Shown here: one piece after another, positions 5,516 through 53,463 of the stretch
How the letters are laid out: each line of letters opens with the position of its first letter
Position numbering within the stretch: the stretch's first letter is position 1
Source: Carex sylvatica
Taxonomy: Eukaryota > Streptophyta > Magnoliopsida > Poales > Cyperaceae
NCBI GenBank assembly: GCA_964058845.1
Contig: CAXKVR010000239.1
Location: forward strand, 34,137-98,136
DNA length: 64,000 nt
Direction of reading: 5' to 3'
The notes under the pieces: model-generated
Database searches by the model: none
What the model saw: the letters and a program-made list of their open reading frames with translations, nothing else
Told to the model about the DNA's origin: nothing
Translations under genes and position numbers: made by a program

Positions 5516-7542
5516 ATGGCAATCTCTAAGGTTTCGTTCCTTGTCACCTTTCTAGTCCTCTTCTACGTAACCCAAGCTCAACTAGGTCAATTGGGTGCCT
5601 CCAGGCGCAAGTTTGGCGATCAAAGAAGCAGGTGCCGCATCGACAGGCTCAATGCGCTACGCCCGAGCCAGCGCATCGAGTCGGAAGCCGGTGTGCATGA
5701 ATTGTATGACGAGAACGAGGATCAGCTTGAGTGTGCTGGTGTGTCAGTTCTTCGCACCCGGATTGAACGTAACGGCCTCCACTTGCCTTCCTACTACAGC
5801 TCCCCTAGCCTTATCTATGTTCTCAGAGGTTTGTTTTTAACTTCTTAGTTCTTATATCCAACTTTCAATTCTTATATTTTTCTTTCCGTTATTTTGTTTC
5901 TAAATCAAAGTTCATGCATGCTTTAAAAATAGGTTACAGATTGTAGCATGGCAGTTTTGGTTTCATATAGCGTATGGACTATAGAGTATAGAATCAAAAC
6001 AACTTTGTATATGATTTGTGCGCTGCATGAAGTTAAAATTGCTCTATCAAAAAAATTACACGAAAAATATATCATATCATGTCATGCATGCATGAACATC
6101 AAATTAAAATAATTTCTTTACCTGGTCTAGCAGTTAATTAATAATCTTTTGAAAATATTTTAGGCAGGGGTGTACTTGGAGCAGTGATCCCGGGATGTCC
6201 CGAGACCTTCCAAGATTTACAACAAGAATCCGAGGAGGGTAGTTATAGAGGCGAAAGAGGAAGAGAAGAGGAGGATGCTGGCAGCCAGACGTTCCGCGAC
6301 GAGCACCAGAGGATCCAGCACTTGCGTCAAGGAGACGTCATTGCGGTTCCAGCCGGTGTCCTTCGCTGGTGCTACAACGACGGCGAAACCCCCCTCGAAG
6401 TTATTGTTGTTACTGACGTCACCAACAATGCCAACCAACTTGATCCAACCTCAAGGGTATGTGATCACTATATATATCAAGTGCTTTTATCAAAATTTAA
6501 TTAGATGACTAAGTAAATAATGCAACCTTTGATCAATGAGTTGATTTTTGGTTAGTACTTCCTGCTGGCCGGGAGACAGCAGCAGCAAAGTGGTGGAAGG
6601 TTTCGCCGGGAAGAGGAGGAGCAAGGAGGGTTATCCAAAAACATCCTTAGCGGTTTCGATGCTGAGCTTCTTGCTGAAGCAATTGGTGTAAATAGGGAAA
6701 CTGTACAAAAGCTGCAAGGACGAAACGACGAACGCGGTGACATTGTGCGCGTTGAAAGGAGCCTCCGGATAATGAGGCCCTCGAGGGAAGAGGAGAGGGA
6801 AGAGGAGAAGGGTGAGAGAAGGGAGAGCAAAGAAAGGCACTCTGAAGGTAGGAGGGTTGAGATGAGCGGAAACGGTTTCGACGAGTCGATTTGTTCCATG
6901 AAGATGAAGGAGAATATCGCCGAGCCGATGAAGGCCGATCTCTACAAGCCCAACGGTGGCCGAATTACATTCCTCAACAGCCAAAAGCTTCCCATTCTCA
7001 AGTACATTCAAATGAGTGCTAATAGGGGAGTTTTGCATAGAGTGAGTGATATAAAATTTACTGAACTATATGATTATTTATATTTTATAGAAGTTATAAA
7101 TAATTAAGAAAATTTTCTAATTATTATTCTCATGTTTTGCAAGCAGAATGCAATTTTGGCCCCACACTGGAACCTCAATGCTCATGCAATTGTGTACGTG
7201 ACAAGCGGCCGGGCCCGCATGCAGGTTGTGAACAACGAAGGACAGAGAGCCTTTGATGGCGAGCTTCGCCGTGGCCAGCTGATCGTCGTGCCTCAGCACT
7301 TTGCAGTGGTCGTGCAGTCGACATCCGAGGGATTCTCCTGGATTTCATTCCAGACAAACGACAATGCGATGAACACGCAAATAGTAGGAAAGACTTCCGC
7401 CTTGCGTGGCATGCCGGTGGATGTTTTGGTGAACGCTTATCGCGGCTTGTCTCGCGAAGAGGCCAGGCGGGTGAAGTTTAACAGGGGCCAGGAGATGACC
7501 ATCTTTACCAGTGAGGGGTCTAGGGGTAGAGAATACGAGTGA
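5516..7542 (+). CDS. 11S globulin (legumin-type) seed storage protein precursor
   Basis: Four exons, 5516-5828, 6164-6456, 6556-7041 and 7147-7542, give 495 residues with GT-AG introns. This four-exon layout is standard for legumin genes. Residues 1-21 are a hydrophobic signal peptide ending VTQA, so the protein enters the ER on its way to storage vacuoles. Two cupin barrels follow. C40 and C73 match the family's intrachain disulfide. C116, in PGCPETFQ, and C315 match the disulfide that links acidic and basic chains. The vacuolar processing site is Asn308-Gly309 (GNGFDESIC), leaving a 187-residue basic chain. A charged Glu/Arg-rich variable stretch lies at about 278-302. The frame is open upstream of 5516, but the TATA-like box at 5452 supports this ATG. 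The 7147 acceptor has an alternative three bases upstream (see findings). The protein stores nitrogen in seeds and self-assembles into trimers and hexamers. Confidence 0.96.
5913..6094 (+). promoter_or_regulatory. RY repeats inside globulin intron 1
   Basis: CATGCATG at 5913-5920 and CATGCATGCATG at 6083-6094 are perfect RY repeats within the first intron. RY elements are classical seed-specific enhancers; function inside this intron is inferred, not shown. Confidence 0.4.
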
Positions 7543-14585: not shown

Positions 14586-16112
14586 CTTAAACATAAAATG
14601 CATTGTGTTAGAATTTTAAACTCTAAAATAAGTTTCCACAACTACAAGATGGATCACTAACCATTAACTTACAAACATACATTTATCATTTTATGAGAGG
14701 CTGAATCATATAAAAAAAATATATATTAAAAAGAGAAATTTAATTAAATTTTAATATACATAATTATTATTTTTTAAATAAATAATGGAGGTTGCTGAGC
14801 TCCCTTGATTTGACTGTTGATACGCCCCAGTTTGTGACTAAATCTAACAACTTAATCAGTACTGATATGGTAAATCTTATCCTTATCCTTGTGCCAGCAC
14901 TGTTTCTGATCGGTTGTTGCTTTAAGGATGAGAAGGGGACGGCTATTGACTAAATAAGTTCTACTACAATTATAATAAATTACGATTCATGAGTTTCTGT
15001 AATAAATGCAACACAATGACAGCAGTAGTACAATTGTACAAATACATAACAAAATACGAAATGAATTCATATGATGTCATAATATTAGTCCAAATAAAAC
15101 AAATTGTTAATATTTAGTCTAAATTGGAAAATGATAATATGTATGTTATTATCCATACCTCTGTTGTGATATTTAATAAAAGAAAAATAGACTAGCTGGG
15201 TAAGATAACGCCATCAAACTTTGCTGTTTTGAGAGATGACTCTGCTTGACCCTGGTCTAAAATTTTAAATGATCGCATGTTGTACGGCTGTATCAACTAT
15301 TGAGTCAGCAATCATGCGAGTCGGGTCGGGTGGGGTTGGATCGGGTCAATTTGACATTCGAGAATTGTGAGATCACGAATCGGATTGGGCATCGGATTAT
15401 CCAATTTTCGCTCATGTCTAGATTTTGGGCATGTCGGATCAGATCAGGTATTGACTTTCTAATAAAGTTCGATTCCGATTGGTTTCTGACCCGGTTGAAT
15501 GAGAGTTGTTATATTTCTAAAGTAACATCAAATGTACATGATAATGTTCGGATCAGGTTGAATTTAAAAAAATGTAAGTCGGATCGAACTTTATAGGCTC
15601 GGGCCGGATGTACATTGCGACATCTGATCAAGCACTAGAAAAGATCCGTTGTTTTTTACGCTTTTAATTGGCTTGTATTGTTTGTGCAGTTGAGCATCAC
15701 ATATATTAATTAAAGGGTAGTGTTGATGCTGTCCAACATGTTCAACACTGAAGCATTTGATAATTACTTTGATAATGCAGATTTCAATCATGATAATTAT
15801 TGTTAAAGGTTTCATCAGATATTTTCTGTCACAAAATATGTAGATTGAGTGAATGATAAGATTTGTGTTGCAGATAGGGGAATTGACTTGGAGATGAAAC
15901 CAAGGATAGCCCCCATTAGGTGAAACCTTTAACAATAAATTAATTCAATCAACAATTAGTATTTGATCTAGTAACAGAAGTAATATCTTCTGTATGAGAT
16001 ATTACGTACTTGAAATCCAGACAAGATCCTTTGTGGATATTTAATAATTCATGACTTGACATCTAACATTTACTCAAAATAAAATAAATTCATCCAATCA
16101 ATACCTTCATTT
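14584..16112. other. intergenic with a CGGGT-type repeat
   Basis: No gene is supported. From about 15310 to 15610 degenerate CGGGTCGGGT / GGATCGGG motifs recur, as in the hAT-like elements at 38735 and 19600; borders were not found. A short palindrome around 15718-15750 is unexplained. Confidence 0.4.
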
Positions 16113-16761
16113 GGTCATGATGTGGCTCTAGACAAGGCTATGAATGTTTCCATAGAATTAGCTGTCTGAGGGGGGGTCTCTGGTTTCAGCTTGTTGACCT
16201 TTCAAGAGGTACAGTTATTTGCTAAATAATTAAATATTTTGAATTAAATTTTCTGACATTAGACACACTCAGTATTATTTTGAGGATTCTGGTATCTGTC
16301 CATAGTGAATGGAGATTTTTTTTATGTATATATGCTGTCAAGAATTAACTATGCTTGTTTTATCAGCATCAGAGGTGCTATCAGCAGTCTCAAATTTTAG
16401 AACCACCATAAAACCAATTTCCTCAGAATTTCCTAACATATGACTATGATTGATCACCTGCCCCTATAATATATTTATGAATGTTTTACCCTTGATTATT
16501 GATAAATTTTGGTATCTTGACTACAACCACAACTGAATCAGACGATGACAGCATTAATCATAGCATTAATCTCCCTTCTGGTACAGGACAGAGTGAAATC
16601 AGTAGTGCATCAATCTGGGCAACTGTGTTTTCTGTTGTCAGAATCCATTTGACAGTGTGTGTTCATGTGGACACATGGCAGGTTGCAGGGAATGTTTACA
16701 GAAAATCATAGAGGCCAATTCAGTATGGCGCAATGAAATAAAAGAGGTAGTAAAAAAATAG
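16113..16761 (+). pseudogene. decayed XBAT35-like UIM and RING tail
   Basis: At 16119-16169 the reading HDVALDKAMNVSIELAV aligns with the UIM exon of the gene at 20580-23083 and then meets a TGA. After the stop the same frame continues GGVSGF, matching GVSVF in the intact gene. At 16612-16761 a second block reads NLGNCVFCCQNPFDSVCSCG and then HMAGCRECLQKI. It matches the RING of the intact gene (CSICIENP, CGHMAGCMGC, LQKI) but ends at TAG without the last Cys pair. A change of frame separates this block from the acidic stretch TESDDDSINHS before it. A stop, a frameshift and loss of two zinc ligands make it a non-functional remnant of a paralogous tail. Confidence 0.75.
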
Positions 16762-20579: not shown

Positions 20580-23083
20580 ATGATGAGCTTCTCGATTGAG
20601 GTAGATAAGGAGGTGTATGAGAATTATTTTTGCATAGCTGATTCGAATGGCGATGGAAAGATTAATGGCCCTGAAGCTGTTGCCTTTTTTCATGGCTCAA
20701 AGTTGTCTCGTGAAGTCCTGGCTCAGGTTCCTCTCTCTGTGTGTTCTTTTAATATATTTTTCATTAAATAAGCATAAAATTACTCATCGATCATTCTACA
20801 TCTAAAACATCATCTACATCAAAATCGAACAACACAAACATAAAAAAAAAAAAAAAAACTTCCTCGGAAGTAGTGGGCAGACTGACACCGACGATCTTCA
20901 GCATCGGCTGGCCAGCGACCTCTCTCTCTCTCTCTCTCACAGCTGCTACCCTTTATTTCTACTTCAAAAAATAGAAAATTACAACCTTGACTCAGTCTCC
21001 AATAAAGTCCCAACCTCAACATTTTTTTTTTTTAATACAGATGCTCTTGCATGCATTATTCATGGATTAATTAGGCCTGTACACCTAATTTCAGCTATAA
21101 TAATCTTAAAGTTCTCTTATTCTTTAGATATGGATACATGCTGATCAAGATAACAAGGGTTTTCTCGATCGGTTAGGATTCTACAATGCTCTCAAGCTTG
21201 TATCAGTTGCACAACAAAAGGGTTATTTAACAGCTGAAAACATAAATCATGCATTATCAGTCAAATCCAAAATTCCTGCTCCAAGGATAAATTTGGGAGA
21301 CGCCACATGTCGTATAAATAAATGTGAAGATTCTACAGAGGCAGATGCTGTTAAGTGGCCAAAATTCTCAGAATCTGACATCTCCAAGTATGCCGAAATA
21401 TTTAGGAAAATGGATAGGGACATAGATGGAAAAATCACCGGTGAGCAGGCGCGCATATTGTTCCTCAGTTGGAAAATGCCCAAAGGTTATTTTCTTGTCT
21501 AACTGTTTAGGTTGTTTTAAAATATATTTTTGTGTCATTTGCTTGTGCTAATCATGTAATTTTCTCCTTCAGGGGTCTTAAGGGATATATGGACCTTGTC
21601 AGATTGTGATAGAGATGGCGACCTTTTGTTTTTTGAATTCTGCATCGCTGTTTATTTCATGGAGCGGCACCGGGAGGGTTTTTCTCTGCCGATCTCACTC
21701 CCTGATACTGTTCGATACGACGAGACACTGTTGAAAGCCACAAGTAAAGGTAGGGGGCAAGTTTTTTAATTAGAAAAATTATTTGGAGAGATTGATCTGA
21801 TAACCGTAAAAAGGTTTTGAGCAGTAATCTAACAAACCCAAAAAGGAAAAAAAAATTATATGTTGTCCTGATTCAATTCAAATTGTTGGTTACTTAATTG
21901 CACAAAATCTTAATTGCAGATAGTAACTCCCATTCAAATTGCTGGAAAAATATCTATCAGTAATGTTATAAAGAAATTTTTTATAACGGTAGCATAATTT
22001 TTTTCCGACCATTTTTTGTGAACTTTATAATTCTTTCCTTTGCTACCTTAATTTAGTCACTCAACCCAATTATCATTTAGATCAAGCAGAGGAGGATCTA
22101 CAATTGGCTATCAAAGCATCAATTCAAACAGCAATACAAGAAGGGGTGTCTGTTTTTCAGCCGTGCGATTCTTTTGGAGGTAAGATGAAGGTCTCATGTT
22201 CAACATTTTATATATTTTTGATGAAATGTTCATGGTTCTATTAAAAACAGAAACTTATTTCTAAAGATTAAAAAAAAGTATCATAATAAATCATAACTTC
22301 ATTTGTTCAGACTTAAGAGCCATAAAATACAAATGTGAAAACAGTTATTTTTCTCTAATTAATAAGAAACATGGTGAGAGGCAGCTAAAAGGAAATAGAT
22401 GGAGGATTTGACGAACTTTCTATTTCAAAAAGGAGAGGGGCAGAGGTCAAGTTATTCAATTAGAAAACATAATTTGGGGATGAACCAGAACTAGAAAATA
22501 AAACATGACAGGTTAATGCACAACTGACAAGGTAATTTTGAAGGTGCCTACTACCAGCAACAGACCATACCTGTTAAACTTTGTACCACCATGGATACAA
22601 CTGACATGGTAATTCTAGGCTTTAACTTTAGGAGATCATTACTCAGATAAGTTTCTAAAAAGAATCTTAATCATACATTTTAACTATAATTAACCATTAG
22701 GTACTGACATGCCAAGCCCAAGTACCCCAACAGCATGTGCACCAGATCTACATAAATTTGGTGCAAACCCCATTCTGTCTCCAAGCACAAATTCCGCACC
22801 GTCAGCGCCGCCTTTGGATTTTTTTTCTTTCCTCTCTGTACCTCATGTTGATAATTTTGGTACAACTGGATTCAAATCAAGTCAAATTCAAGAATGGGAG
22901 AGCAACTGTGTCAATTTAGGCCTGTGCAGCATCTGTATTGAAAATCCAGTGGAGGGTGCGTGCATACCATGCGGACACATGGCCGGCTGCATGGGATGCT
23001 TACAGAAGATCAAAAATTCCGGCGGCGAGTGCCCTATCTGCCGTGCCAAAATTGTGTGGATTGTCAAACTCTATGCTGTATGA
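20580..23083 (+). CDS. EH-EH-UIM-RING chimeric protein, putative endocytic E3 ligase
   Basis: Five exons, 20580-20726, 21128-21485, 21573-21749, 22081-22179 and 22701-23083, give 387 residues with GT-AG introns and an open frame. EH domain 1 spans about 9-100, with a canonical EF loop D21-E32 and the conserved Trp51. EH domain 2 spans about 125-215, with EF loops at D145 and D179-E190 and Trp175. Both resemble the N-terminus of plant AtEH/Pan1 proteins, but the linker is only about 25 residues where those proteins have a long one. Exon 4 encodes a ubiquitin-interacting motif, 231-248 (EEDLQLAIKASIQTAI). Exon 5 adds a Pro/Ser linker with PSAPPL and a C3HC4 RING: C336, C339, C351, H353, C357, C360, C371, C374, ending IVKLYAV as in XBAT34/35. 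Expected activity is EH binding of NPF motifs, ubiquitin binding and E3 ligation at endocytic membranes; this is inferred from domains. Fusion of two adjacent genes by misprediction is the alternative, but frame and phase agree throughout. Confidence 0.85.
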
Positions 23084-29887: not shown

Positions 29888-31832
29888 TGTGCTCCAATTG
29901 GGGGGAATGGAGGGGAGGGTGAGGGAATTTTGTACGTTAACCTGCTCCACAAATAAATATCGAAAGGAAAGGAAAGACAGAGCGGGTGGATGGTTTACTC
30001 TGCGGGGCCAAAAAATGTCACCCCCAAATCGGAGTGTAGCCGAAGGGAAAATGGGCCCACCAGCGAAATTGACCAACTTTGCCCTCTTTCTGCCTCTGAA
30101 GCTTCATCTCCCTTTTGGCAATCTCAGTTTTTTCTCTCAGCGATCTCCTGTTCCTGTATTTTCTTATGGCGATCTCCACTTTTTCTCACAGCTCTTTAAA
30201 TAACTTCAATTCTGTAAATTCATGAATTCTTCTCAAAAGTACCATGAGGGGCTACTCGGCTACTCCTGTTGTATGAACTACAGCCTATAAGGTAAATGAT
30301 TTTCAAATGCTTCTTGATTTGAAGTTCTTGGTCTTGACCCATTTGTAGAGATTGAGTTTGTTAATTCTTATACTAAATATGTAAATCTTAGAGATGTACG
30401 CAAGCCGTTCAATGAAATGCTCATTAATAATGTCAAAGCACTGTTTTGGCTTGGTGTGATTGTGTATGCGTTGATACACAAATTGCAAGAGTTAGGTGTA
30501 TACTGTATAATAATGTCAAATAATTTTCAATATTTTCAATTGATATTGGTACCGTACTTATTGTTGTTTGATTTTAGAGGGAAGCCAAGTGAAAGACTTA
30601 GAACAACCATGAAGCTGGGCTTATAAATTGACAACAATTTCTATGAGAATTTGAGGAAGCATTAACAGGATATGCCAGAATCTCAGTAGTAGTTTTTATG
30701 TTTTTCAATTTTAATTTAGTTGTTAGTTAACATGTAGTAGGTTTTATCATCAATTTCAGCTTTTCTTTTCAATTTACTTTTGTACTCTGGAACAATCAGA
30801 AGTGTAGGGTGAAAGTTACGATTAGATCCTTCACCTTTTCAATTTATAAAAAGTAGAGGGACCGGACTGTCATTATCTCCAATTTATCGAAACATCTCAT
30901 CTTGAATAACATACAAAACGAGATACAAGAATCACTGGTATCAATCGGGCTCAAAGTGATGGAGTAGGAGCACCGTTTCATTTACTGGTAGTTAGATGTC
31001 TACATTATTTTTTTAATTATATGACTTTAGTTTTCAGGTAGTTTGCTAGTAGATGTATTTCTAATTTTTTTATGGCAATATAACTTTGTTAGATTCTTTA
31101 ATTAATCATTTAATATACTGTACCACGGGTTTCTCATAAAAAAAAAAAGACAAAGATTGATTTTTGATTTAAATTCTTTATCCACTGTTTGTTGTTATCG
31201 TGTATGCATAATGCTTGAGCATATATTTTGAATATTAAAATAGCAAAACTTTCAGGGACTGGCATGTAACTTTCGTATACCTTTCTCGTCATATTCTTTT
31301 ATAGCTCTTGATGATCATTTGCTACTTATTATTAAGTCAATTTTGTTACTATATTGCATAATACTAAACATAAATATGAATGTCTATTATTCTCTTGAAG
31401 GACCTATTTATAAACTTCAAATGAGGATACCAATGGGTATAGTGGTATTGGTACCACTGGTACTAGTGAGGCTATGAACATGCTGATATATTGAGTTTTG
31501 CATCTGGTTTTGTATTTTTGTGAATTGCATAGTTGCAAGTTGAGTTTAAGCCTTATAATAGAATACTTGTGATTCTTTTTTTTTTTTCAGAATTTTGTGT
31601 TTATTATGAGATGCTTCCAATGATGGACAAAAAAATAAAATATACCTTTTTACTATCTAAAGCCAACTAGAGAGCAAACTAGTAATTATAGATAAAATAT
31701 AAGTGAAGTTTAAAAATAACAGCTAACTTCTCCCGTTCATCCGTGAACTTTATTGGAGCAAGTAACTTATTAAAAATATCCCCTCCCTCCTCTCCCCTCC
31801 CCTTCATCTCTTCTATAATTACTGGAGCACAG
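29888..31832. mobile_element. 1.9-kb non-autonomous TIR element nested in Copia gag
   Basis: Ends TGTGCTCCAATTGGGGG and CTGGAGCACAG are inverted, and imperfect similarity (G/C-rich GGGGAGGG blocks, inner GGAGCA) extends for some 60-80 bp. Flanks CCTAAGGG (29880-29887) and TCTAAGGG (31833-31840) match at seven of eight bases. Gag sequence continues on both sides, which proves insertion. No transposase was recognised in the interior. Superfamily is uncertain; 8-bp duplication favours hAT. Confidence 0.75.
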
Positions 31833-32914: not shown

Positions 32915-35867
32915 ATTTTAGATTCCGGTACAACCGATCACATGACTGAAAATAAAGATTTATTACAAAATTATAAAAAAGAAAAAGGTGGAGAATTTGT
33001 CTATGTTGCAAATGGTGAAAAAATAAAAATTTGTGGTTATGGCTCTATTATTATTTTTTTTATAGGAAATTACAAATGTCATGCATGTAAAAAATTGTAC
33101 TGCCAACTTATTATCTATGGGCAAACTTTCAAAGGAACTAAAGTGTGAAATTATTTTTTCACCTCAAAATGTATTCTTTCATGATATAATATCTAAGAGG
33201 ATGATTGGTGAAGGTGTTTTCAAAAATGAATTATATTTTTTTGTATAGCCAAAAATACAATTTCCACACCCAAGTACAAGACTTGGGATACTTATGGCAT
33301 AGAAGAATTGGACATCCTTCCGATAGAATATGTATTTTTTATTTTTCTAATTTAGATTGTAGTAATTGTGAAGTATGCAAACTAGCTAAGCATACAAGAC
33401 TCCCTTTTGTAAGCTCAAATTCTAAGAGTAATCATATATTTGAAATTGTTCATTCCAATGTTTGGGGACCCACTCCTGTAAACTCTTATAATGATTTCAA
33501 TTTTTTTGTTACATTTATAGATGATTTTTCACGACTAACATACTTATATTTATTAGAAAATAAAAGTGAGGTTTTTACTCATTTCCAAGATTTTTCAAAT
33601 TTAATTGAAAATCAGTACAATACTAGGATTAAAATTCTTAGAACTGATAATGGAACGGAATTTGTAAATCTAACATTGTCAAATTTCTTGAAACAAAAAG
33701 GAATCATACATCAAACAACTTGTGTTTATACTCCAAAACAAATGGAATTTTCGAAAAAAAAAATCGTCACTTACTTGAAATAACAAGATCACTTATGTTT
33801 CAAACCAATGTTCCAAAAATCTATTAGTCGGATGTCGTTCTCACCGCAACTTATTTGATAAATAGGTTGTCAAGTATTGTTTTAAAAAATAAAATCCCAT
33901 TAGAAATTATTTACCAAAGAAGAATAATTTTTAATCACCTAAGAATTTTCGGATGTACATGTTATGTACACCAACATAAAAGATATAAACTAGACCATAC
34001 TTTTATAAAAACTATTTTTTTAGAATATTCATCTCAAAAAAAGGGTTATAAATGCTATGATCCTATAAATAAAAAACTTTATATTTCTAGAGATGTAACA
34101 TTTTTTTGAAAATGAGCCATATTTTAAAAATAAAGAAGAGATTGATAATCAAATTAGTACAAATGATTTTGTCATTCCCGTGTCTACTGATCAAATTATT
34201 GAGCAAAAAATTATAAAAAATGACAAAAATGAAGAAGAAGAAGAAGAAGAAGAAGAAGAAGAAGAAGAAAATGATAACACTTCTCAAAGTGGAGCTGGGG
34301 AGGAAGAAAAGGAAAATATTAATGAAGAAAATATTGAAGAAGAACCTAGGAGGAGGTCAACTCGTTATAGACAACCATCAATAAGGTTACGAGATTTCGT
34401 AACCTATAAAGTTCAATATCCTATTGAAAATTTTATTTCATATAAAAATATTTCAAAAAATCACCATGCATTTCTTAATTCAATTTCAAAAATGAAAGAA
34501 CCAAGAAATTTTGAAGAAGCCATTAACCAACCGGTGTGGTACAAGGCTATAGAAGAGGAACTTTAAGTCTTAGAAAAAAATAACACATGGACCATTGAAC
34601 CATTACTAAAAAATAAAAAACTCGTTGAATGCAAATGGGTTTATAAAATAAAATATCAAACTGATGGATCCATAGAAAGGTATAAGGCCCGGCTAGTTGA
34701 CAAAGGGTATACCCAAATATATAGTATTGATTGCCAAGAGACCTTTGCTCCGATAGCAAAGATGAATAACATAAGAATTTTGCTTTCAATAGCGGTAAAT
34801 AATGGATAAAACTTATGTCAAATGGATGTTAAAATTTTTTTTTTTTCAAGGAATACTTGAGGAAGAGATTTATATGACTCTACCACCGGATCATATAAAA
34901 AGAAAAAAAAAATACTAACTTTGTTTGTATGTTAAATAAGTTAATTTATGGTCTTAAACAATCGCCAAGGACATGATATGAAAAACTCTCTCAATATTTA
35001 TTTTTTCTCAGTATTAAAATAAACCAATCCGATACATCACTATTTTCAAAATATAAAAATAATGATACAACCATTATTCTTGTGTATGTTGACAACATAA
35101 TTATTATCAGAAATAATTATGAAAAAATTGACAGTGTTAAAAAACACCTAAAATAAAAATTTTAAATAAAGGATCTTGGTAGACTTAAATATTTTTTTAG
35201 GAATTGAAATAGTTCATTCCTTCAAGGGATTATTTATCTCACAAAGAAAATATACTATTGACATGCTAAAAGAAACGGAAAAATTAGGATCCAAACCAGC
35301 CTCAACACCAATTGATAGCAATTGTAAATTGAATTCAGAAGAAGGGGAACCGTTGGAAGATATCAACCAATTTCAACTGCTTGTAGGTAAGTTAATCTAC
35401 CTAACGGTAACTAGGCCGGATATATCATGTGCAGTAAGCCAAATTAGTAAATTTATGCACTCACCAAGAAAATCTCATTTGGATGCAATTGATAGAATTT
35501 TGATATACTAAAGAAATTACCCAAAAATGATGTATTGATGAAAAACAATAAATCTAATGATGTGTGTGGCCATTCCAATGCAGATTGGACCAGGAGTTTT
35601 GATAGAAAATCAACAACCAGCTATCGCACATTTGTAGCAAAATATTGTATCATGGCATCCACCGCGAGTGAACTCACGTGGATTAAACAATTGCTTGAAA
35701 AATTAAACTTCAAAATTGATAAGCCAATGAAGATGTTTTGCGATAACAATGCGGTAAGGCAAATTGCTTCAAATGCCGTATTTCATGAAAGAACAAAGCA
35801 TGTTGAACATTTCGTAAGAGAAAAGGTGCAAGCAAAAGAGATTGAGACCCTTTATGTGAAGAATTAA
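32915..35867 (+). pseudogene. Copia pol remnant: protease, integrase, RT, RNase H
   Basis: Protease is recognised by LDSGTTDHM near 32920. The integrase zinc finger (HRRIGHPS, then CSNCEVCKLAKH) and core (33205-33783) follow. The first catalytic Asp is Asn here (HSNVWGP instead of the usual HSDVWGP), the second is intact in LRTDNGTEF, and the third motif is lost at a poly-A frameshift near 33760. A (GAA)n run at about 34216-34270 encodes a poly-Glu tract in the spacer. Reverse transcriptase begins near 34560 and contains several stops; its YVDD box reads YVDN at about 35085. RNase H ends at 35867. The element cannot transpose on its own. Confidence 0.9.
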
Positions 35868-40316: not shown

Positions 40317-43197
40317 TTAAAAACTAGAAAATTCATTTAAATTAAGCATAGTAGTAACATTATTCTCAAAGATCATATTAAGATCTTCATTTTCATCCGC
40401 CGCTTCATTAGCTAGAGGGGATTCATTGTTGTTACATGACTTGTATTTTTTCGATGCTTCCACAAGTTCAAATTTAGATGAATCTCGTTTGATAGAACTC
40501 AATGTTTTTTTTTCCTTTTTGGTCACCAAAGCTTGCGCCTGTTGCGTGAAACTTTTGGTTCAAGTATCAACTCGGAATTGGACATAAAGTTGGAAATATG
40601 TTCCTTGGCAACTTCCTTTTTGTGAAGAGGCCATTGTTGATATACTTGGATTGAAACTCAATAAATAAAATCATCATTTCAGTATCAACATCATTAGTCG
40701 AGTTGGGTGGTGGAGCATACAAGAGTGATCTATTATTAATTCTTCATTGTTGATTAATCAAATCTAGCGGTAACATTAAATTGGTGAACTTCATTATTTT
40801 ATGGGCAAATGGAAGACCTATTGTCGCCTGAAAATTTTCCGTGCAAACGGGATTGAATGTTCTTTTTTTTTTTGATCTTTTCATATTACTTGTACAACTC
40901 TTTCAAAGCATAAATGGAGACATTCATTAATAGTTTCTTGAACAATGAAATATCACAACTATGCAAGATACATATTTTTATCTCTTGAGAGATTCACCTT
41001 TATTTCATTGAATTCGTTCTCGACTGCGAGAAATATTTTATCTTTTACCCGTTGAAAATCACATGTTGAAAACAAACTATATAAATATACTAACTTGTAG
41101 AGTACACAAAGATCTTAAAGCAATATTAATAATTACAAAATTTATTGCTTGACCAGACAAGTATGTAATTACATTATATGTTTTTTTCCTTTTCGTTTTA
41201 TTACTTCTTGAACTTTCAACTAATTACTTTTACATTTATTTTAACTGTTATTTTTATATTTTTACAGCTCAATGATTTTTGAGATACACTATTGTATTTT
41301 ATCAAAGTTTATCTCACTTTAAAGACCTAGACATTTTTATTCTCATTTATCATATATAAATAAGGGTTAAGACTCTTATTTTTTTCTAAAAAAGTAAGTA
41401 CATGTTGAAACTTGCAGATACATTTTTAGTTTTACATGCGCTCCTTCGGCTCTCGAGGATGCATGATTGCCTAGATGCAAATACTTATCCGTCCGTACTT
41501 CAATAAATTTTTCTTTCAATGGCAGTAAATCCTACAAAATTTCAATAATAATATAATACTCTTGAGTTAGAACATTAAATTTAAAACTAGACAATTGTTA
41601 GTAATTATAAGGTCTTATATCAAAATCCTTTTCGAATTGTTTATTTATTTATTTTGAAATTAGTACTACTCATTTTTTTAATCTCTCCATGTAATTTGTC
41701 TCCATGAAACAAAAATTCAAGCATGTCACTAATAATTTTTTTATTTTATGGTATAAAGTTGGAAGTGAGAGAAACTTTTTGTTGATCTACCTAAAACATA
41801 TATATCGGATATAAAAAATTTACTATACACCAGTTGAATCCAAAAATTAAAGCATACAGGAAATTACATGCTTATTTTATTCTTGGTACGCTCGGATTTT
41901 TGACATACTTAATTTGTTTTTTTTGTTAGATTTTTTAAGTATATGGACTGTAATTTGTAACAAAACAGATTCGAACTTTATTAATTTTTTTTGTTTTCTA
42001 AATTTTAAGTTTCAACGAAAAACTATATGAATAAAATAATATTTTATATAACTAAATTGAAACACTAAATCTTCATTATGTATAGTAGCAAAGCTTATTT
42101 CTCTTCATAAAGTGATTGAAGTTTCAACCAATTTTGATCAAATTCTACTTCGGTTGAAGAATAAACTACCTTGTTCCAAATAGATAGAAAAATATCATAT
42201 TCCTCTTTGGAATCAAAGTGTTTTCGACAATTTGTCATTAAATTCTTTTCTATATACCACATACATAGAAGATGGATAGTAGTTGGAAAGACAACATTCA
42301 CTGCTTTTGTAAATGCTTGTTGCCGATTTGACATTATAACCGAAGGTTGAGTCTCTTTAATTTGGATGAACCTTTTTAAACATGCTTAGTACCCATATGA
42401 AATTTTCTTCTCTTTCATTCTTTAAAAGTGCACATCTGGCATAAAATGATATGTTAAAGCATGAGACCCCAACAATATCAAAAAGTGGCATCTTATACTT
42501 ATTTGTTTTATATGTACAATCCATAATGAAAACACTACGAAAATTCTTAACCAGAGTGATTGACATAGAATGTATAAAGAAAAGATGTGTAAAAAAATCA
42601 ACTTCATCTTGTAAAATATCATACTCAAACCCACCTCCTAGTTCTTCCAATAAAATTTGAATCATTGTTCGATCTTCTAACTTTTCTTTATGGATCTTTG
42701 CCTTCACATTATACATAGTTTTAGAGAGCTTTAAGCTCGGAATTCTTTTGGCGTAAATAAGAGAGGATTTGTCTAGGCGGTATTCCAAATCGAGTCATGT
42801 GGTCAACTTTCTCGATATCTTCTTATGATAGTTGTCGAAGAGAAGGATGGCCAGAAATATCGGCAGATGCTTAATGGTTGTGTGATAAGTTACGTACTTC
42901 AATTATCCAAATTTCTTCATCCATCTTTTTACCCTTAATTTTAAAATGACAATTGATCCGGCGTGTCCCTGTTGTATTTTCTCTTTCATCTAAAGGCACA
43001 CCCCGTACATCGCAATATTGACCACTTCTATCACATTGTAAAATCACATATTTCTCTGCAAATAGATAATACGTATCCTTTAGCCGAGTAAAATGCATAC
43101 CAATGAGTAGATCTTCGCGAGTTTCGTACTTGAAACTGAGTAATTCGAGTTTTTCAGCCTCTTGTTCAAATCAAATTGCCGACTCATCAATATTCAT
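40317..43197 (-). pseudogene. MULE transposase with FAR1 DNA-binding domain, decayed
   Basis: Reading leftwards from an ATG at 43197: a FAR1-type zinc domain at 43098-42871 (CDRSGQYCDVRGVPLDE, then GTRRINCHFKIKGKKM and LSHNH). Then an MULE transposase region at 42788-42357 (FIMDCTYKTNKYKMPLFDIVG, here split by the limit after DIV), and HLLCMWYIEKNLM at 42334-42095. At about 41515-41400 LGNHASSRAEGAHVKLK continues it, and a SWIM-like FQATIGLPFAHK appears near 40840. The C-terminal tail ends at 40317. There are stops at codon 9, between domains and in the tail, plus frameshifts. This family includes FHY3/FAR1 transcription factors, but the decay and setting point to a dead transposon. Confidence 0.85.
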
Positions 43198-52030: not shown

Positions 52031-52896
52031 GCTAACTGCCGATTCTCTTTTTATTACTAAAACAAAAAAAGGACGCAAACACTTGAAACACAGAAAAAAT
52101 ATCGAACTTGACTTCTACACAGTAACATACATGTTGCTTTTTGAGCATTGTTGCAAAAAAAGAGAGGCCTGGAGAGAGAATGTGTACTGTGTATAATGGA
52201 TATGTCCAGTCCTCATGCCTGGAGAGAACGCCAGTACTGAAACATATAAACTGTCCGGACACTGAATTTAAAATTCAATATTGAATGTATTTCGTATAGT
52301 GCGCCAGAATCAGATGTCCGTGTACACTCTACACAAAGTCACGACTGACATCAGAAATAAAAAATAATACCAATGACCGTACAGATATTTCACTGTCCCT
52401 CCTCTCCACTAATTTTTAATTTTTTCTCCTGTCACGTCATCTTTTTACCGCACTGTCAACTTTTCTCCTATTTGCACAGCCTCCTTCACAGTGATTCTCC
52501 TATTCTTTCTCAATCATCCCCCCTTTTTTAGCTAAAGAAATCAATAGCAATAGCAATAGCACCTGAAGTAAAACTAAAACCAGATGTTTATAATTCTCTC
52601 TTCTCTTCTCCATTGATGCGTGCTGGGTAAACCAAAATTGGTGTCTCAGGACCACATACTTCTCTTAGAATTACTAATTCATTCTCTCCTTCCAATCTGA
52701 CAAAAACCCAGAAAAGGTATCTATTTCCATATCTATATTCTTCTTCAATCTGAATTGGATCTATTTATGGTGCTTTGTTTATCTCTTCAGTATACCATTT
52801 ATATCCAACCTAGCACCAATTCCTAAATTGATCTCTTTGCTTGTTTCCCCACACTTTAAATAAAAGAAAAGAAGAGAGAACACCTTGCCTATTTAC
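52031..52896 (+). promoter_or_regulatory. promoter and 5' leader region of the ALOG gene
   Basis: No other gene is seen. The leader is pyrimidine-rich. AAAAG|GTATCT at 52715 and TCTCTTCAG| at 52790 could bound a 75-bp leader intron. No convincing TATA box was found. Confidence 0.35.
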
Positions 52897-53463
52897 ATGG
52901 ATCTAGTTCCAAATCCAGAAAGCCCTAACTCAGACAACACCAGTGGACACCATCTGTCAGTCACCGTCGCAGCCTCTAGTTCCTCGACCCCTCCTTCTCT
53001 CAGCCGTTACGAATCTCAAAAGCGCCGTGATTGGAACACCTTCGGCCAGTACTTAAAAAACCACAGGCCGCCGCTAAGCTTGGCACGGTGCAGCGGGGCC
53101 CATGTGTTGGAATTCCTCAGGTATCTTGACCAATTTGGCAAAACCAAAGTACACACGCCGGTGTGCCCCTTTTTTGGGCACCCGGCTCCGCCCGCACCAT
53201 GCCCGTGCCCACTACGTCAGGCCTGGGGCAGCTTGGATGCGTTGGTCGGGCGGCTTCGTGCAGCTTACGAAGAGAATGGTGGGAAGCCGGAGAACAATCC
53301 ATTTGGTGCCCGTGCTGTTAGATTGTATTTGCGAGAAGTAAGGGAACACCAAGCAAAGGCAAGGGGAATAAGCTATGAGAAGAAGAAGCGGAAGAAACCA
53401 CCGACAAGAGATCAGACACCGCCACCGGGATCCACTAGTACTCCTGCAACAGCGACATCATAG
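52897..53463 (+). CDS. LSH: ALOG-domain transcription factor (LSH family)
   Basis: A single-exon gene of 188 residues, typical length for LSH proteins. The ALOG domain spans about 37-162, starting [18 protein letters not shown] and ending with [13 protein letters not shown]. It contains the zinc-ribbon insert with H86, C90, H95, C102 and C104. The basic KKKRKK at 162-167 is the family nuclear localisation signal. The N-terminal 36 residues are Ser/Thr-rich and the tail Pro/Thr-rich, both variable in the family. The ATG at 52897 is the first in frame. LSH proteins are small nuclear DNA-binding regulators that control light-dependent growth and organ boundaries; the domain is thought to derive from a tyrosine recombinase of DIRS-type elements. 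LSH1-LSH4 subgroup is likely; which member is not certain. GC content is far higher than its surroundings. Confidence 0.95.

Follow-up and report, generated by a model that had tools for sequence, protein, structure and literature searches.

A chimeric gene of two sedges joins a pair of EH domains to an XBAT35-type RING finger

In plants, proteins of the plasma membrane have to be tagged with ubiquitin and recognised where endocytosis takes place, and to our knowledge the TPLATE machinery has been tied directly to ubiquitin ligases in few cases. A natural fusion of a TPLATE-type EH region with a ligase would link both in one chain, and would offer a compact and testable reagent. In animals, Eps15 has UIMs, and we know of no RING in it. 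In AtEH1/Pan1, according to PMC8144573, a coiled coil and an acidic motif come after the EH pair. XB3-like ANK-RING E3 ligases are defined in PMC3596331 by at least two ankyrin repeats. For XBAT35.2, the published account describes binding to the ESCRT-I component VPS23A through PSAP motifs, said to be two, and ubiquitination of VPS23A.

The window analysed here (the whole stretch of 64,000 nucleotides of Carex sylvatica DNA) contains a gene in which known modules stand in a new arrangement: the chimera is genuine, and it is conserved between two sedge species. Its exons are the following.

20580..20726, forward strand: exon 1, start codon and first half of EH1 (residues 1-49), with a phase-0 donor after ...LAQ
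21128..21485, forward strand: exon 2, second half of EH1 (to ~21295), a linker of ~19 residues and the first half of EH2 (from ~21353)
21573..21749, forward strand: exon 3, second half of EH2 up to RYDETLLKAT(SK), with an alternative donor at 21744
22081..22179, forward strand: exon 4, UIM-like helix at about 22086-22133 (residues 230-245)
22701..23083, forward strand: exon 5, a low-confidence/disordered part, a PSAP motif, the RING, the C-terminal tail and the stop

A first-pass annotation of this DNA had joined these five exons in frame into a protein of 387 residues, and the model stands, as all borders are GT-AG and the frame is free of stops. A script enumerated 18 in-frame models without stops (378-391 residues), this one among them; they vary solely in the exon-1 donor, the exon-3 donor and the exon-4 acceptor. 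The choice among them is settled by a protein of Carex rostrata, P0001 ('uncharacterized protein LOC144567604 isoform X2', 385 aa), which matches the query over 100% of its length at 95% identity and shows the same joins, except that it uses the exon-3 donor lying 6 nt upstream (21744) and reads KATNQAEED. Its isoform label suggests a transcript-based annotation. According to PMC12635528, poly(A) libraries have been prepared for C. rostrata. Between the proteins of C. sylvatica and C. rostrata, 18 alignment positions differ, two of them gaps, and only one of the 18 lies within the 56 residues of RING and tail.

The two EH domains announced at first are recovered by Pfam in two stretches (94.2 bits in C. 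sylvatica, cut-off 22; 99.3 bits in P0001). Among PDB sequences, the best match of EH1 is EH1.1 of AtEH1/Pan1 (6yeu, E=5.4e-27), and that of EH2 is EH1.2 of the same protein (6yet, E=1e-33). EH1 and EH2 are respectively 57% and 58% identical to those of the C. rostrata AtEH1 (P0227, LOC144551456), 54% and 58% to those of Rhynchospora, and 56% and 58% to those of Juncus. For the key residues, the reference positions of AtEH1 were taken from PMC8144573. Both tryptophans of the NPF pocket are kept (W49 as W51 in EH1, W401 as W175 in EH2), and the PIP2-binding residues R384, R391 and K398 of EH1.2 correspond to R158, K165 and R172 in EH2 of the fusion, three basic positions. Residues K42, K78 and K97 of AtEH1 EH1 correspond to R44, K80 and K97, where the C. 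rostrata AtEH1 itself has Q, G and K; R428 is kept as R202, while R431 is lost (F205), an arginine that the C. rostrata AtEH1 does not have either (S493). The calcium-loop acids are kept relative to AtEH1, with N for its D21, the loops of the fusion being D21/N23/D25/E32, D145/D147/D149/Q156 and D179/D181/D183/E190. P0001 shows the same pattern of key residues. Since EH2 keeps basic residues at the PIP2 positions, NPF motifs and membrane lipid are equally likely targets.

An AlphaFold model was made on P0001 with 24 sequences. Its mean pLDDT is 62.6, and 156 of the 385 residues, including the start of the RING, fall below 50. EH1 is modelled with confidence (most blocks above 90) and EH2 less so, a helix at 226-245 (P0001 numbering) covers the UIM-like motif, and confidence is low over 249-347, again with the start of the RING. 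The top Foldseek match of the model is 6yig (AtEH1 EH1.1, rmsd 1.3, TMt 0.87), whereas 6yet, in third place, has an rmsd of 13.1, a poor fit of EH2; no RING structure is found among the 50 Foldseek matches listed.

Two further features lie in the last exon.

22799..22810, forward strand: PSAP motif, residues 294-297, in the setting SAPSAPPLD; a possible ligand of ESCRT-I VPS23, judged from the motif
22925..23080, forward strand: C3HC4 RING (from C336) and C-terminal tail ...IVKLYAV, recognised by Pfam, aligning with the RINGs of MDMX and MDM2 through Y385

The XBAT35-type C3HC4 RING proposed from the letters alone is borne out by Pfam (46.9 bits, cut-off 27; 47.0 bits in P0001), by a profile common to homologues named XBOS34, XBAT34 or XBAT35, and by the presence of all eight zinc ligands (C336, C339, C351, H353, C357, C360, C371 and C374). 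C-terminal tails of the MDM2/MDMX type support RING dimers. No ankyrin match is given by Pfam in the fusion or in P0001. The PSAP motif had been missed in the earlier reading; it occurs once in the fusion and once in P0001, and the SAPSAPP setting recurs in the C. littledalei protein. Among 34 chosen XBOS34/XBAT35 relatives, 28 carry P[ST]AP, and four of the six that do not are from Rhynchospora (which contributes six rows).

As to the ubiquitin-interacting motif, the first-pass annotation was right in part: a UIM-like motif is present and a helix is predicted over it, but its score (14.1 bits, and 12.8 in P0001) is below the Pfam cut-off of 21. A UIM-like pattern is matched at the same place in 31 of the 34 XBOS34/XBAT35 relatives (chosen out of 100), although the Pfam UIM is absent at E<=1 from the four relatives that were scanned. 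As these relatives share its position, the motif presumably arrived together with the RING module, as XBOS34 heritage; the parallel that had been drawn with the UIMs of Eps15 is then no sign of kinship, and the likeness is probably one of convergence.

How rare is this order of domains? EH and RING occur together in one of 107 homologues, P0001 (precomputed Pfam column, within the length range searched). The RING profile is found without EH in 100 of them, many named XBOS34, XBAT34 or XBAT35 and others hypothetical or otherwise named, and six are proteins or fragments of the EH side (P0002, P0003, P0004, P0006, P0013 and P0106). Neither Carex littledalei nor Rhynchospora has an EH-RING counterpart among the 107. 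Open-licence PMC literature, queried for EH+RING, EH+UIM/E3, NPF+RING, EH+U-box/kinase and AtEH+XBAT, yielded no characterised plant protein of such an order; it brought up PMC4276913, whose text deals with other subjects, and PMC7253699, and among the ten titles listed by a looser search none was on this topic. The view that no described plant protein has it therefore survives for characterised proteins, but the order is not unique, C. rostrata carrying the uncharacterised LOC144567604. Rfam and tRNA searches gave no match.

As to origin, our reading is that the first exons of an AtEH1/Pan1-type gene were joined to the last exons of a gene of the XBOS34/XBAT35 type, in place of its ankyrin repeats; taken together with the ligase mechanism discussed below, we hold this to be somewhat probable. 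On the EH side, intron 1 lies between Q and IW, in phase 0, and EH exons on contig C21 have an intron at the same position. Exon 2, which closes in phase 1 after KMPK-G, matches the stretch IW...LPR-G of AtEH1-type proteins. It is probably a single AtEH1 exon that has lost a long linker, as P0006, P0013 and P0106, which are AtEH1-type sequences of different provenance, run beyond LPR-G into unrelated and mutually different residues, like unspliced genomic reads, and P0006 reads LLQ directly before IW; the two EH domains are separated by ~19 residues in the fusion versus ~315 in P0227. On the RING side, an alignment to XBOS34 covers the C-terminal part, beginning at the UIM-like motif and reaching the final residue, with 38-40% identity to the compared XBOS34-type proteins of C. 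littledalei and R. pubera. The joint to this part sits at intron 3, a position which, with comparison made on the AtEH1 side only, would fit joining between exons and not retrocopying.

When the EH region of the fusion is set in a tree together with 33 selected proteins of the AtEH1 type, it sits on a long branch (0.86-0.96 over the EH trees), with neither its position nor the bootstrap settled; grouping it with Carex, with Cyperaceae or with Cyperaceae plus Juncus gives p-AU values of 0.136, 0.192 and 0.315, none rejected. The C-terminal part is likewise on a long branch (1.7) in the XBOS34/XBAT35 tree. Because of these long branches neither of the two donors can be placed, and drift may have altered binding. 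The assembly of the window yielded no canonical gene for AtEH1 or XBOS34, and as this assembly is clearly partial (64 Mb versus 381 Mb for C. rostrata), we do not claim their absence from C. sylvatica. RING-like matches on contigs C26 and C424 (low scores, 41-49% over 37 residues with the fusion) and low-scoring ankyrin matches on contig C201 were taken for other genes.

About 4-5 kb upstream of the gene, at 15750-16755, remnants of EH1, UIM and RING follow one another in the same order, with stops.

15750..15794, forward strand: relic of the start of EH1 (EAFDNYFDNADFNHD); protein score 57 against Carex AtEH1, with 0 of 200 shuffles reaching 57
16119..16190, forward strand: relic of the UIM exon; DNA score 39 against a maximum of 31 in 60 shuffles, and 34 against a maximum of 32 in 200 (weak)
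16606..16755, forward strand: relic of the RING exon, its second half degraded; DNA score 83 against a maximum of 30 in 60 shuffles

A second shuffle comparison gives the RING-exon relic a score of 125 against a maximum of 42 (0 of 200). The EH1 relic shows as protein only against AtEH1 and the U-box fusion described below: against exon 1 of the EH-RING gene its score of 41 is reached by 1 of 200 shuffles, and as DNA it is not detected (34, null maximum 41). The EH2 exon is not detected in this copy by DNA comparison. Taken as a whole, these remnants are most simply read as a tandem copy that has decayed.

The window also contains, at 7108-7542 (with ORFs from 5339), a Cupin_1 exon (101 bits) of what looks by eye like an 11S globulin seed storage protein gene, and at 52864-53463 an ALOG-domain reading frame (226 bits). 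Apparent pieces of a Ty1/copia retrotransposon and a MULE transposase fragment lie at 33205-35867 and 42357-42794; the integrase core is in 33205-33783, and the remainder of the Ty1/copia-like pieces was recognised by eye.

A second fusion of EH and E3 modules was found in the same assembly, together with a relative of its E3 donor.

contig C21, 321607-325678, reverse strand: second EH-E3 fusion, six GT-AG exons, 676 aa
contig C889, 727-5952: PUB33-like U-box kinase gene, related to the EH-U-box donor and carrying an N-terminal domain of its own

The order of the C21 protein is an AtEH1-type EH1, a coiled coil (by eye), a kinase (148.9 bits) and a U-box (67.4 bits). Its EH scores 16.2 bits, below the Pfam cut-off of 22, and its first 116 residues are 70% identical to the C. 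rostrata AtEH1. This EH lacks the first-loop glutamate (E30 to K22) and groups with Carex AtEH1, with weak support (84/0). A C. rostrata counterpart of the same length, P0226 ('U-box domain-containing protein 57-like'), is 96.45% identical. Among 99 matches to the first 180 residues, three have a U-box (P0226, P0302 and P0305), and of these P0226 alone has an EH match worth counting. In the intron before the ICAKLQ exon, the last ~385 bases match between the C21 fusion and the C889 gene (score 376, shuffle maximum 30, 0 of 200), so the break of this fusion is probably inside that intron. As the breakpoints differ, EH-RING and EH-U-box are separate events. In C. rostrata, EH-RING, EH-U-box and AtEH1 are on records of 10.56, 12.53 and 16.35 Mb, lengths that match chromosomes 16, 13 and 3 in the published table. 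That EH domains of AtEH1 were captured in sedges at least twice, onto two unrelated E3s (a RING and a U-box kinase) and each time in place of the N-terminal domain, so as to form a lineage-specific set of endocytosis-targeted ligases, is a plausible reading that we place slightly short of an even chance.

The kinase motif HGDLNPSN of the C21 copy reads HGALNPSN in P0226, at residue 442. The aspartate of motifs of this type is catalytic; to judge from the residues it seems lost in P0226, whose kinase may be turning into a pseudokinase. Elsewhere in the assembly, contig C284 has at 30563-30685 (reverse strand) an isolated match to the C. rostrata AtEH1 coiled coil, 41 columns long (63%); no other significant match to that protein was found in the 7 kb around it, and it is perhaps a gene fragment.

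What could the EH-RING protein do? It would be a small RING ubiquitin ligase, probably working as a RING dimer. Its EH domains, with calcium-loaded EF loops, would bring the ligase to proteins with NPF motifs (such as SCAMPs) and to a plasma membrane or cell plate rich in phosphatidic acid/PIP2, and through the UIM-like helix and the PSAP motif it may be linked with ubiquitinated cargo and with VPS23 of ESCRT-I. Its targets for ubiquitination, at membranes served by the TPLATE complex, would be endocytic cargo or ESCRT/adaptor proteins. We infer the joining between exons, as well as the activity, dimerisation, binding partners and site of action of the protein, and we lean, by a modest degree, towards this explanation as a whole, that of a retained AtEH1-XBOS34/XBAT35 chimera acting as an EH-targeted RING ligase.

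The premise of a single gene has to be weighed at the outset. Introns 3 and 4, of 331 and 521 bases, divide the two halves, and since the model comes from sequence, two adjacent genes might have been wrongly joined. However, P0001 runs across the joint in another species, the relic copy keeps the same order, and no ATG precedes the UIM-like motif in the stop-to-stop frame that contains exon 4 (21993-22244). The full-length identity of 95% and this missing ATG make the EH-RING arrangement no product of chance and hardly one of two genes; the single gene proposed at first is upheld, and we regard a wrong join as extremely improbable. A chimera may also be functionless, perhaps transcribed yet drifting, as could be read from the long tree branches, from the decayed sister copy nearby and from the fact that a full-length relative is found only in C. 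rostrata among the 107 homologues. Against this, the frame, the zinc ligands, both EH tryptophans and the calcium-loop acids are intact in two species, and we consider drift quite improbable.

If the gene is functional, its two halves need not matter equally. The protein could be chiefly a competitor driven by its EH domains, occupying sites at the membrane, or ligands with NPF motifs, that AtEH1/Pan1 uses, yet unable to join the TPLATE complex without the later parts of AtEH1, with ubiquitination secondary or limited to self-turnover. The EH pocket residues are indeed kept and no AtEH1 part beyond the EH pair is matched in the fusion, but a difference between species at one of 56 positions of RING and tail suggests that the RING matters, and such a competitor seems to us unlikely. 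Conversely, the main target could be the ESCRT/ABA arm inherited from XBAT35, namely turnover of VPS23, with the EH domains merely shifting the location. The UIM-like helix, PSAP and RING were inherited as a block, and the published account of XBAT35.2 and VPS23A describes both binding and ubiquitination; on the other hand, a single PSAP is present in the fusion versus the two said for XBAT35.2 in that account, and the C-terminal part has diverged (38-40% identity, as above). This possibility is on the unlikely side too, if a little less so.

The EH-targeted RING ligase that we favour can be set beside known systems. With AtEH1/Pan1 it shares two EH domains in the same order, the NPF tryptophans, the calcium-loop acids, the basic residues of the PIP2 site and the intron between Q and IW common to the AtEH1-type EH exons on C21; it differs in having a RING module instead of the AtEH1 coiled coil and acidic motif, and a linker shortened from ~315 to ~19 residues. 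It is not an AtEH1 orthologue, because BLAST matches the EH domains of P0227 only and none of its later parts. With XBOS34/XBAT35 it shares, in the same order, the UIM-like helix, PSAP, the C3HC4 RING and the ...LYAV tail, but it has no ankyrin repeats, of which the definition of the XB3-like ligases asks at least two. Animal Eps15 resembles it in having EH domains followed by a UIM-like helix. A parallel in design is the EH-U-box fusion of P0226 and C21, where AtEH1-type EH exons also replace the N-terminal domain of a plant E3 and the intron between Q and IW recurs in the C21 copy, although it has one EH only, a U-box kinase rather than a RING, and other breakpoints; it suggests that EH modules can be carried from one protein to another and serve ligases as targeting units.
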